From: Escallonia rubra | Taxonomy: Eukaryota > Streptophyta > Magnoliopsida > Escalloniales > Escalloniaceae | Assembly (NCBI GenBank): GCA_033065855.1 | Contig: JAVXUO010001488.1 | Coordinates: 868,001-932,000, forward strand | DNA length: 64,000 nt | Direction of reading: 5' to 3' | In this document: positions 32,098 through 41,248 of the stretch, piece after piece | How the letters are laid out: each line of letters opens with the position of its first letter | How positions within the stretch are numbered: the first letter of the stretch is position 1 | The notes under the pieces: model-generated | What the model was told of the DNA's origin: nothing | Database searches by the model: none | What the model saw: only the letters and a program-made list of their open reading frames with translations | Program-made: the position numbers and the translations under genes

Positions 32098-32426
32098 ACA
32101 TCTGATGCCAAGGAAAGTGGGTTCGTACTTACGTGGAGGTGCCATAAAGGCTGCAGTCCGAGTCAGCTTCCAAGTATGTTGATGTGAGACACAGCAAGGG
32201 TGGAACAAGGGCAGAGACCAAGGGCTTCCCAGACAGAACTCGAGGGTGGTAGTGCTGCGAGGGCGATAGCGCGAGATGAATACACGATGACAGTCACAGT
32301 CCGATGCTTAGGTCCAGAGTCAGGGTACTGTATGTTTCTCTCTCTAGAATTCTAGAGTGAGAAAGTGAAATATGTTCTGAAAATGTCCAACCTCTATCCC
32401 CTTGTCCAAATGAATTCTCAAGACCT

Positions 32427-32436
32427 CTATTTATAG
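32427..32436 (-). promoter_or_regulatory. LTR TATA box (3' LTR)
   Basis: CTATAAATAG on the minus strand, at the same place in both LTRs, about 330 bp from the LTR 3' end. This would put the R-U5 part at roughly 0.3 kb and leave a U3 of about 2.1 kb. Confidence 0.65.
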
Positions 32437-32833
32437 AGATTGAGATGATGATGTCATTAACCGACACGTGGCGCTCCCCGGGAGTGACACGTCACCGGGG
32501 GGTCCACGGATGTCGGTGCTCCACGGACTGTCGGATCGCATATTCACCCGGCCTGCTCCTCACAGCGTCGCTCCGTTTGTCAGGAAAGACTGGCTCCCAC
32601 CGCGTTGGTGTGGCCAGAGAACCCCTTGATCTAGCCTCCAATCTAAGCCCTTGCGGAGTCCCACAGGCCTGGCAGCGGTGGGGAAGACCCGACGCCCAAC
32701 TGCCAGGTGAACTAGGCGCGATGCCCTCCGAAGACCTGCTCCCGTCTCGGAGTGACCCGGGGGTCATAGTCCCTAGAGGTGCCGACGCAAGCCTCCAGTG
32801 CCGGAGCACGTAGGCCAGTCACGCAGGCACCCT

Positions 32834-33520
32834 GACGGAGATAGTGTCCCGGAGGAGTCGCCTATTCCGCAGGCCGAGGTAGCATCCCGGAGGAGCCGTC
32901 TACCTGGTCGGCCAAGGTAGCATCCCGGAGGAGCCGTCTACCTGGCGGAAGGGGAGTTGAAGAGCTCCCTGGCAGAGATAGTGTCCCGGAGGAGTCGCCT
33001 ATCCCCGCGGGTGAGTCCTTGTGCCGGAGCACTCGGAGCGAGTCAAGGTAGCATCCCGGAGGAGCCGTCTACCCGACTGGCCGAGGTAGCATCCCGGAGG
33101 AGCCGTCTACCTGGCGGAAGGGGAGTTGAAGAGCTCCCTGGCAGAGATAGTGTCCCGGAGGAGTCGCCTATCCCCGCGGGTGAGTCCTTGTGCCGGAGCA
33201 CTCGGAGCGAGTCAAGGTAGCATCCCGGAGGAGCCGTCTACCCGACTGGCCGAGGTAGCATCCCGGAGGAGCCGTCTACCTGGCGGAAGGGGAGTTGAAG
33301 AGCTCCCTGGCAGAGATAATGTCCCGGAGGAGTCGCCTATCCCCGCGGGTGAGTCCTTATGTCGGAGCACTCGGAGCATGTCAAGGTAGCATCCCGGAGG
33401 AGCCGTCTACCCGACTGGCCGAGGTAGCATCCCGGAGGAGCCGTCTACCTGACGGAAGGGGAGTTGAAGAGCTCCCTGGCAGAGATAGTGTCCCGGAGGA
33501 GTTGCCTATCCCTGCGGGTG
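32834..33520. repeat. 169-bp tandem array in 3' LTR
   Basis: The phrase GGGGAGTTGAAGAGCTCC recurs four times at 169-bp steps, with AGCATCCCGGAGGAGCCGTC and AGTGTCCCGGAGGAGTCGCC inside each unit. Each unit itself contains repeats of a ~40-bp sub-unit around CCCGGAGGAG. In the other LTR (39531-40177) the first step is 131 bp instead of 169, a 38-bp sub-unit loss or gain. Confidence 0.9.
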
Positions 33521-33924
33521 ATGTACACTTCGGAGAGGGGGTTGAAGCATGTTCCATGACCAAGGCAAAGTGCGCATGGTGTGATGAATGAGTGTGGTGC
33601 CCGAGGGCATGATGACATGATTGTGGCGCATGGGCGCGATGAAGTGAGTAAGGTGTCGGGGGCACGTCTATATCAATGGCGCGGCGCATGGGCGCGACGG
33701 AGTGCGTAAGGTGCCGGGGGCATGTTTGTGTCAATGTTGGCGCATGGGTGCGAGAGAATGCGTAAGGTGCCGGGGGCACGTTGGTGTCAATGGTGGCACA
33801 TGGGCGCGACATAGTGCGTATAGTGTCGGGGGCACGGTAGTGTGACAGAGAGCCTAGGGGCACGGCTGTATCAGCGGCGCGGCGCACGGGCGCGGCGAAG
33901 TGTTGGAGCGTGACGCCAGGACGT

Positions 33925-38335: not shown

Positions 38336-38677
38336 TCACGACACTGGGACCTGAGCAGTGTCCAAAACTAGCCCAGGCCCTGAAGGTTGGATATGAGCAG
38401 GAAGGACCAAACATGGAGCTTGGGATAACACGGGGTGAGTAATGGGCACATGGTGCAGAGCTCTAAGGCTTTGGGAAATCGGTGATTGTGAAGTCAAGAC
38501 TTGGATTGATTTTTGCATTTCCACCATGGCTGTCATAAGAGTGGCTATAGTGGGCGAAAACTGCTGGATGGCCGCGTTGACTGCAACTTGTATGTCAGGT
38601 GCGGTAGTTTGTGGCTGGTCTTGGGGACGCACAGCACTGGTCCCCTCTTGTTCACCCGAGTGGTCCTCTTCTTGCAC
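38336..38677 (-). pseudogene. gag: N-terminal part of gag cut off by an in-frame stop
   Basis: This frame is the same as that of the downstream gag core. It codes a Gln- and Ser-rich segment with IQVAVNAAIQQF and LMTAMVEMQKSIQVL, typical of plant gag N-terminal regions. It ends at TGA (38336-38338) in the context TCG TGA CC. A CGA codon at this place would keep the frame open into the core. No ATG stands at the start of this segment, so its own start is unclear. Confidence 0.7.
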
Positions 38678-38777
38678 GGCATGGATAAGGCACTGACTGG
38701 CAGCCCTCGTAACTTTTCATTGTCTAGGCATGGAGACTGAGTGCGGAAGATAGACAGACTGCAGTACGATGCTCACC

Positions 38778-38795
38778 TCCCCAGCAGAGTCGCCA
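38778..38795 (-). other. Retrotransposon primer-binding site
   Basis: On the minus strand TGGCGACTCTGCTGGGGA follows the LTR end (GGCATCA) after a three-base TTT spacer. TGG at the start is the usual complement to a tRNA 3' CCA end. As I recall, this type of site is found in Ogre/Tat elements and assigned to tRNA-Arg. Confidence 0.8.
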
Positions 38796-38798
38796 AAA

Positions 38799-41248
38799 TG
38801 ATGCCAAGGAAAGTGGGTTCGTACTTACGTGGAGGTGCCACAAAGGCCGCAGTCCGAATCAGCTTCCAAGTATGTTGATGTGAGACACAGCATGGGTGGA
38901 ACAAGGGCAGAGACCAAGGGCTTCCCAGACAGAACTCAAGGGTGGCAGTGATGCGAGGGCGATAGCGCGAGATGAATACACGATGACAGTCACAGTCCGA
39001 TGCTTAGGTCCAGAGTCAGGGTACTGTATGTTTCTCTCTCTAGAATTCTAGAGTGAGAAAGTGAAATATGTTCTGAAAATGTCCAACCTCTATCTTCCTG
39101 TCCAAATGAATTCTCAAGACCTCTATTTATAGAGATTGAGATGATGATGTCATTAACCGACACGTGGCGCTCCCCGGGAGTGACACGTCACCGGGGGGTC
39201 CACGGATGCCGGTGCTCCACGGACTGTCGGATCGCATATTCACCCGGCCTGCTCCTCACAGCGTCGCTCCGTCTGTCAGGAAAGACTGGCTCCCACCGCG
39301 TTGGTGTGGCCAGAGAACCCCCTTGATCTAGCCTCCAATCCAAGCCCTTGCGGAGTCCCACAGGCCTGGCAGCGGTGGGGAAGACCTGACGCCCAACTGC
39401 CAGGTGAACTAGGCGCGATGCCCTCCGAAGACCTGCTCCCGTCTCGGAGTGACCCGGGGGTCATAGTCCCTAGAGGTGCCGACGCAAGCCCCCAGTGCCG
39501 GAGCACGTAGGCCAGTCACGCAGGCACCCTGACGGAGATAGTGTCCCGGAGGAGTCGCCTATTCCGCAGGCCGAGGTAGCATCCCGGAGGAGCCGTCTAC
39601 CTGGCCGGCCAATGTAGCATCCCGGAGGAGCCGTCTACCTGGCGGAAGGGGAGTTGAAGAGCTCCATGGCAGAGATAGTGTCCCAGAGGAGTCGCCTATC
39701 CCCGCGGGTGAGTCCTTGTGTCGGAGCACTCGGAGCGAGTCAAGGTAGCATCCCGGAGGAGCCGTCTACCTGGCGGAAGGGGAGTTGAAGAGCTCTCTGG
39801 TAGAGATAGTGTCCGGGAGGAGTCGCCTATCCCCGCGGGTGAGTCCTTGTGCCGGAGCACTTGGAACGAGTCAAGGTAGCATCCCGGAGGAGCCGTCTAC
39901 CCGACTGGCCGAGGTAGCATCCCGGAGGAGCCGTCTACCTGGCGGAAGGGGAGTTGAAGAGCTCCCTGGCAGAGATAGTGTCCCGGAGGAGTCGCCTATC
40001 CCCGCGGGTGAGTCCTTATGCCGGAGCACTCGGAGCATGTCAAGGTAGCATCCCGGAGGAGCCGTCTACCCGACTGGCCGAGGTAGCATCCCGGAGGAGC
40101 CGTCTACCTGGCGGAAGGGGAGTTGAAGAGCTCCCTGGCAGAGATAGTGTCCCGGAGGAGTCGCCTATCCCTGCGGGTGATGTACACTCTGGAGAGTGGG
40201 TTGAAGCATGTTCCATGACCAAGGCAAGGTGCGCATGGTGTGATGAACGAGTGTGGTGCCCGGGGGCATGATGACATGATTGTGGCGCATGGGCGCGATG
40301 AAGTGAGTAAGGTGCCGGGAGCACGTCTATATCAATGGCGCGGCGCATGGGCGCGACGGAGTGCGTAAGGTGCCGGGGGCATGTTTGTGTCAATGGTGGC
40401 GCATGGGTGCGACAGAGTGCGTAAGGTGCCGGGGGCACGTTGGTGTCAATGGTGGCGCATGGGCGCGACATAGTGCGTATAGTGCCGGGGGCACGGTAGT
40501 GTGACAGAGAGCCTAGGGGCACGGCTGTATCAGCGGCGTGGCGCACGGGCGCGGCAAAGTGTTGGAGCGTGACGCCAGGACGTCGGGCGACGGGGTCGCG
40601 GAGTGACGCCGGGCGACTGGGGTCGCAAAGTTAAGTCTGGGCGACGTGGTCGCGGAGATGATGTCCGGACGACGGGCGACGGGGGTCGCGGAGATGACGT
40701 CCGGACGACGGGGGTCGCGGACGATGACGTCCGGACGACGGGCGGCGGAGGTCGCAGAGTTGACATCCGGAGGACGGGCGACGGGGGTCGCGGAGATGAC
40801 GTCCGGGCGACGGGCGTCGCGGAGTTGACGTCCGGACGACGGGCGACGGGGGTCGCGGAGTTGACGTCCGGACGACGGGCGACGGGGGTCGCGGAGTTGA
40901 CGTCCGGACGACGGGCGTCGCGGAGGATGCAAGGCCTCTTGAAGAGAAGTGAAAGTGTTAAGTATGGAGACCAAAGGCCAACCCTTCGGGGAAGGCCAAG
41001 GCCAACCTCAAGGGGAGGCCGAGGCCGACCCCAAGGGGGAGGCCAAGGCCAACCTCCTTGGGCAAGTGTCATGGCGCGCCGACGGGCAAAGTGCGACGGT
41101 CGAAGTGTCATGAGGCTTGGTCACGTTCTTTGAGCGTGCATGCTTTGACCGGTTGTGAGCGTTGAAAATGTCTGTTGCTTGTGCGGACGTGTCATGCAAA
41201 ATGGGACCGTAGTGGGCCTTTGGGTACGACCAGAATAGGTTGGGAACA
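38799..41248 (-). repeat. 5' LTR of the gag-only retrotransposon
   Basis: Upstream LTR in the element's orientation. TATA box CTATAAATAG lies at 39123-39132. It has the same three arrays as its partner: 39531-40177, about 40270-40500, and 40579-40925. Small differences to the other LTR include ACAAAGGCCGC against ATAAAGGCTGC near the left end. Confidence 0.92.
39123..39132 (-). promoter_or_regulatory. LTR TATA box (5' LTR)
   Basis: CTATAAATAG on the minus strand, the likely core promoter for the element's genomic RNA. Confidence 0.65.

Follow-up and report, generated by a model that had tools for sequence, protein, structure and literature searches.

A 64,000-nt stretch of the Escallonia rubra genome (assembly GCA_033065855.1, contig JAVXUO010001488.1, positions 868,001-932,000 of the forward strand), referred to here as the window and providing the coordinates used for the element, contains a structurally complete long terminal repeat (LTR) retrotransposon at 32103-41248, whose features are listed in Table 1. 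It lies in minus-strand orientation, which the original prediction did not give, and both of its boundaries are exact to the base. As had been predicted, it is flanked on both sides by 5-bp ACATC duplications, its 2.4-kb LTRs contain tandem arrays (units of 169, 56 and about 29-36 bp), and a primer-binding site (PBS) lies directly after the 5' LTR. The LTRs start with TGTTCC and finish with GGCATCA, and alignment of the pair, a check proposed together with the prediction, covers 2395 positions at 97.1% identity with 53 transitions and 16 transversions (Kimura two-parameter distance, K2P, 0.0295). LTR-type repeats of such length, identity and order are not the product of chance. The expected purine tract is also present, but it is short and consists only of AGGGGG; its junction with the 3' LTR is the same in 31 of 35 compared rows, some of which represent one place. 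The rest of the window contains nothing similar to the element at E 1e-5.

Table 1. Features of the gag-only element (window coordinates).
Feature	Position	Strand	Remarks
5' LTR	38799..41248	-	2450 bp, TG...CA
3' LTR	32103..34543	-	2441 bp, 97.1% identical to the 5' LTR
Target-site duplication ACATC (+ strand), 5' side	41249..41253		
Target-site duplication ACATC (+ strand), 3' side	32098..32102		
TATA-box-like TATAAATA in the 5' LTR	39124..39131	-	Putative promoter role
Primer-binding site TGGCGACTCTGCTGGGGA	38778..38795	-	Directly after the 5' LTR
gag frame	36992..38731	-	580 codons including the stop; ATG at 38731, stop 36994-36992
Retrotrans_gag (capsid) domain	37475..37702	-	Pfam E 5.8e-8
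Non-coding interior	34554..36991	-	Where relatives would carry pol
Purine tract AGGGGG	34548..34553	-	Four bases before the 3' LTR

The gag gene and the absence of pol

The gag frame was correctly predicted, and it holds a Retrotrans_gag domain. It is broken, however, at codons 5 and 132 of its 580 codons by premature stops (38717-38719 and 38336-38338); because of these stops the window copy cannot make full-length Gag, and the description of the element as intact does not hold. Both stops were compared with a set of 17 gag copies, made up of the window copy and 16 copies fetched from the 566-Mb genome (fetched loci carry L numbers). The stop at codon 132, which is codon 114 in the shorter frame, is absent from all 16 other copies. 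Codon 5 can be read in 13 of them and is not a stop in any, one of the 13 being interrupted by a stop of its own at codon 3; L043 is without that stretch and two copies fall short of codon 5. Structure prediction for a 417-aa Gag fragment, made without an alignment, gave a predicted local distance difference test (pLDDT) score of 33 and is not usable, and comparison of the Gag sequence with solved structures gave none at E 1.

Gag is the only coding domain found in the element, as in TR-GAG elements, and the claim that its 4.3-kb interior lacks pol is borne out. When seven pieces of a pol-carrying relative were compared by tblastn with the 4255-bp interior, only the gag piece matched at E 0.01, and all seven matched the positive control, locus L059; neither reverse transcriptase (RT) nor integrase was detected inside. 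Six open reading frames (ORFs) scanned against Pfam, five in the interior and one in the 3' LTR, with some short ORFs outside the scan, gave no match, and interior coding content beyond gag was rejected. An RNase H-like match in the LTR (31% over 45 aa, E 8e-4) is short, lies in repeats and is taken as chance; comparable weak RNase H matches are seen in five of six other copies.

A more general picture emerges from the 14 copies in which the end of gag can be read (the window copy, L042-L046, L066, L068, L069 and L071-L075; L041, deleted there, and L051 and L054, cut inside gag, were left out of this count). In all 14 the frame ends at the same stop and is followed by the same non-coding sequence, small insertions and deletions (indels) aside, and none runs on into pol. 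Target-site duplications differ among the three copies read at both ends, with ACATC at the window copy, ATATG at L041 and AATAT at L042, and the K2P distances between paired LTRs are 0.0163 in L041, 0.0304 in L042 and 0.0053 in L044 (from a partial LTR), against 0.0295 in the window copy. Because the junction is common and the duplications and LTR divergences differ, the pol-less form has moved repeatedly. It is the standing structure of the whole family and not a one-off deletion, and the classification as a TR-GAG-like, gag-only, non-autonomous element is upheld at this level.

Stops and indels are absent from codon 19 onward in seven of the 14 copies. Three of the seven are open throughout, another three as far as they were read, and the last carries a stop at codon 3. 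The open gag frame that is characteristic of TR-GAG elements is absent from the window copy and present at the level of the family, and the proposal that the element could assemble its own particle fails for this copy but may hold for open copies of the family. The family is numerous. A genome search with the LTR had been suggested with the prediction as a way of counting copies. Rough, first-look counts across the genome are 2728 candidates for the LTR start, 1493 for the end of the interior and 1003 for the gag gene; 40 of each were scored, and for gag these (the window copy included) are 97-100% identical.

Several other features of the region can be noted. A perfect 14-bp palindrome, GTGGCTCGAGCCAC, forms the centre of one of two related motifs at 34660-34916 on the minus strand, before the 3' LTR; one or both of these motifs were found again in many of the fetched copies, and a similar stretch is present after gag. 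An Rfam search of window positions 30000-44000 gave no match at the gathering score. A tRNA-Ile (aat) gene is located at 22389-22462, and the long ORFs flanking the element (13700-17766, 46755-47654 and 50124-50759) presumably encode a P4-type ATPase and protein kinases, judging from their appearance.

Relatives with the same primer-binding site

A 20-mer consisting of the primer-binding site and the two preceding T's has 256 exact occurrences in the genome, and its reversed control has none. The first 22 of these in contig order were classed from the sequence downstream of the primer site, of which 1.5 kb was read at 12 loci and 2.3 kb at 10 loci. Five belong to the family of the window element (L051, L054, L066, L068 and L069), with L051 and L054 placed by LTR and gag identity, and one (L061) represents a second gag-only family. 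Six have a different, pol-carrier type of gag (L047, L050, L053, L055, L063 and L064), L053 and L055 being assigned by gag alone; in the other four protease or pol follows, as seen in the extensions L059 (of L047) and L060 (of L050) and in L063 and L064, both of which reach protease. No gag was seen in the remaining ten. A search for a pol-carrying partner, recommended with the original prediction, succeeds with respect to the primer site but not the LTR: in the 1.5-2.3 kb read at each locus none of the 22 is a pol carrier with the LTR of the window element, and the 11 loci in which the LTR end is most similar (at least 80% over the matched part) show no pol. In Medicago, the families Mtr57/Ogre1 and Mtr70 are described as having a PBS complementary to tRNA-Arg (PMC2533021).

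The pol-carrying loci L060 and L059 contain RT, RNase H, RVT_3 and integrase, with RVT_3 located between RNase H and integrase. In L060 gag, protease, RVT_1, RT_RNaseH, RVT_3 and integrase are all found as Pfam domains, and the gag and protease of L059 were found by tblastn with pieces of L060. Each also has an antisense match to the plant mobile domain, which passes the curated cut-off in the L060 ORF (E 1.4e-11) and falls short of it in L059 (E 6.2e-7). We take Pfam RVT_3 to be equivalent to the aRH of the Ogre literature. In Ogre and Retand a second RNase H domain lies between the first one and integrase, and 57% of Ogre elements are reported to carry a plant mobile domain (PMC6317226). Because the pol-carrying kin have the second RNase H and matches to the plant mobile domain, we call them Ogre-type. 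The L060 gag is 58% identical to that of the window element over 376 columns, in an alignment that reaches exactly the gag stop of the window element.

There is no LTR match in the 10 kb after the primer site of these kin, which places their interior at longer than 10 kb, and LTR-array matches are 13.4-15.6 kb apart on five contigs; the pol carriers are therefore likely to be about 15 kb or more in length. Frames open for 2000 aa or more were recorded at 15 of the 94 RT places scored, and ten RT places are situated 2.6-3.1 kb downstream of an exact primer site, a pairing that rests on the first 100 of the 256 sites. We note that a pol-carrier LTR (L047:1-707) contains tandem arrays as well, their periods ranging from about 32 to 131 bp. 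The size and array content of the LTRs, which had been singled out as making the window element stand out, are not distinctive, given that the one pol-carrying relative tested also has LTR arrays.

The ten loci without gag in the sequence read have the same primer site, and six of them (L049, L056, L057, L058, L065 and L067) carry the segment located just after gag in the window element, at 82-88% identity. Most of the LTR ends of these six differ from that of the window element (76-90% identity), a pattern that would fit an exchange of LTRs and interiors. The post-gag segment common to the gag-less families (element positions 4377-4740) was considered as a packaging signal, and there are no grounds for calling it one.

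Selection on gag and the probable mode of propagation

The gag gene is under purifying selection within the family. Across the 17 copies the pairwise ratio of nonsynonymous to synonymous substitution (dN/dS) is 0.348 (codon bootstrap 0.27-0.45; mean over 136 pairs 0.336), there is an excess of third-position changes among the gag variants, and the shifted sense frames +1 and +2 give 1.14 and 0.86. One antisense frame gives 0.37 and the other two 1.17 and 0.92; the value of 0.37 is taken as an artefact, the third positions of that frame coinciding with those of gag. Constraint varies along the gene, with dN/dS of 0.56 (0.34-1.04) for codons 1-130 of the aligned frame and 0.19 for codons 251-420, which include the capsid domain. 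A maximum-likelihood codon estimate of omega is 0.507, and values corrected for the mutation spectrum are 0.50 for shared variants and 0.65 for singletons, a difference that is not significant (p 0.34). Because all readable copies are pol-less, the variation in gag most likely arose after pol was lost, and the constraint suggests either that the family's own Gag favours its own RNA or that the family needs a Gag of its own.

The most likely scenario, to which we assign a probability of roughly 0.8, is that the window element is a gag-only, non-autonomous member of a Tat/Ogre-type plant LTR retrotransposon system, obtaining Gag from its own family and enzymes from pol-carrying relatives. Transcription of the element would start in the 5' LTR, and the RNA would be packaged in particles formed from Gag made by the open copies of the family. 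RT, RNase H and integrase would be supplied by the long (about 15 kb or more) pol-carrying relatives, and these enzymes would copy the packaged RNA, primed at the common primer-binding site, and insert the product. The best reading of the family is as a semi-autonomous one of the TR-GAG type, making its own Gag and borrowing RT and integrase. Packaging by its own Gag, the borrowing of enzymes, mobilisation by pol carriers and the identity of the lending relative are what we infer from sequence comparison.

Several observations weigh against this scenario. The pol frames of L059 and L060 are broken by frameshifts or stops, and at 13 of the 15 RT places with long frames the match is interrupted by one or two stops, perhaps marking a frame boundary. 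The pol-carrier LTRs match that of the window element only in roughly the last 680 bp, at 66-68% (four loci), and in the five pol-type loci where the corresponding piece matched they are 71-75% identical over the last 93-153 bp. The bases just before the primer stretch are AACA in all six pol-type loci and CATCAT in the window element, in a comparison of bases beside the primer stretch rather than of LTR termini as such. No primer tRNA was found in the three loci examined with ARAGORN among ten candidates, these being genome places with a stretch complementary to the primer site, without CCA. In half of the copies with a readable gag end (7 of 14, including the window copy) the frame is interrupted by a stop or indel at or after codon 19, and the copy set is not random, with L071-L075 (5 of the 16) and several others having been picked as close or best matches.

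The gag of L061, the second gag-only family, ends at the same stop codon as that of the window family and is followed by homologous non-coding sequence (77.6% over 371 bp); relative to two family copies it has dN of 0.20-0.22, dS of 0.79-0.80 and dN/dS of 0.25-0.27, from codons tabulated in two pieces and with one stop inside the matched piece. Because the gag stop and its continuation are the same in L061 and the family at a dS of about 0.8 and a dN/dS of about 0.25, it is conceivable, and we put this forward only tentatively, that they represent an old gag-only clade within the Ogre-type system. Such a clade would have kept a working capsid gene for a long time and would comprise families with different LTRs, accompanied by gag-less hitchhikers having the same primer site and part of the non-coding interior in common. 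The gag tree is unrooted and does not settle whether L061 and the window family form a single clade.

Among the other explanations, the abundance of gag-only copies and the presence of pol carriers with long open frames would also fit a gag kept mainly for the benefit of other elements, a mutualist or Gag-donor role like the one put forward for RLG_Quinta. We consider this reading unlikely; the Gag would have to work across a gap of 58% identity. A somewhat weaker candidate is that the element is a passive passenger, its RNA packaged by the Gag of autonomous relatives and its own Gag a functionless relic. The ten gag-less loci among the 22 with the same primer site indicate that gag is not strictly needed for spread, and the broken frames in half of the readable copies are also in keeping with a relic. 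However, the third-position excess, the family dN/dS of 0.35, the value for codons 251-420 and the low ratio between two family copies and L061 at a dS of about 0.8 speak against it, and we regard a passive role as improbable. That an autonomous copy simply lost pol by internal deletion, leaving at this site a dead remnant without a lineage of its own, would account for the broken gag of the window copy, and deletion is a likely route of pol loss at some point, but this explanation is largely refuted and very improbable given the common pol-less junction in all 14 readable copies, the target duplications and LTR divergences that differ between copies, the 1003 first-look gag candidates with the 40 scored at 97-100% identity, and the constraint on gag.

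Comparison with known gag-only systems

The semi-autonomous, gag-only reading has precedents. The window element has LTRs, a PBS, a gag domain and no pol in common with TR-GAG elements, together with TG...CA ends and a target-site duplication; elements with only GAG, or GAG and AP, are classed as TR-GAG by Inpactor (PMC6022998), and an Arabidopsis TR-GAG with a 562-aa Gag is reported to transpose (PMC8704663). It differs in having Tat/Ogre-type kin and a broken gag, and its length of 9.1 kb is above the third quartile of 8054 bp for TR-GAG elements in PlantLTRdb (PMC10025401).

A parallel in organisation is seen with RLG_Quinta and RLG_Cereba of wheat, likewise a gag-only family and a pol-carrying partner with an identical PBS, where RLG_Quinta is proposed to supply GAG and to borrow RT and integrase (INT) (PMC11302176). 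Those elements are centromeric, with an integrase carrying a CR domain, an extra domain of unknown function in Quinta and identical LTR termini in the two partners (PMC11302176), whereas the Escallonia elements have different bases ahead of the primer site and strongly divergent LTRs. RLG_Sabrina, RLG_WHAM and RLG_Wilma similarly provide autonomous, semi-autonomous (GAG) and non-autonomous tiers in one genome, but Sabrina_SA and WHAM encode GAG and protease (PMC9744471), whereas the window element stops at the end of gag. Gag-only Athila families of Arabidopsis are likewise pol-less with gag under purifying selection; they belong to another lineage, some members of which have env (PMC2410132), and the kin described here have the second RNase H, a mark of Tat.

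The pol-carrying kin resemble Ogre elements of the Tat group in the position of RVT_3 between RNase H and integrase and in the antisense plant-mobile-domain ORF (PMC6317226), whereas in the window element pol and the second RNase H are both missing and the scanned ORFs give no Pfam match to the plant mobile domain. Non-autonomous members are reported in a 2025 survey of Retand elements (PMC11963269). A gag-only family of Ogre type does not appear in the titles and abstract openings of the literature matches listed, and we do not claim that it is absent from print. Constrained gag-only families, partners with the same PBS, three-tier complexes and a transposing TR-GAG are all already in print. 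To these the Escallonia family adds a Tat/Ogre-type example of a gag-only family that keeps gag under selection, and the presence of pol-carrying and gag-less tiers in the same genome makes the questions of who packages whom, and of why a parasite retains its own shell gene, approachable from a single genome sequence.

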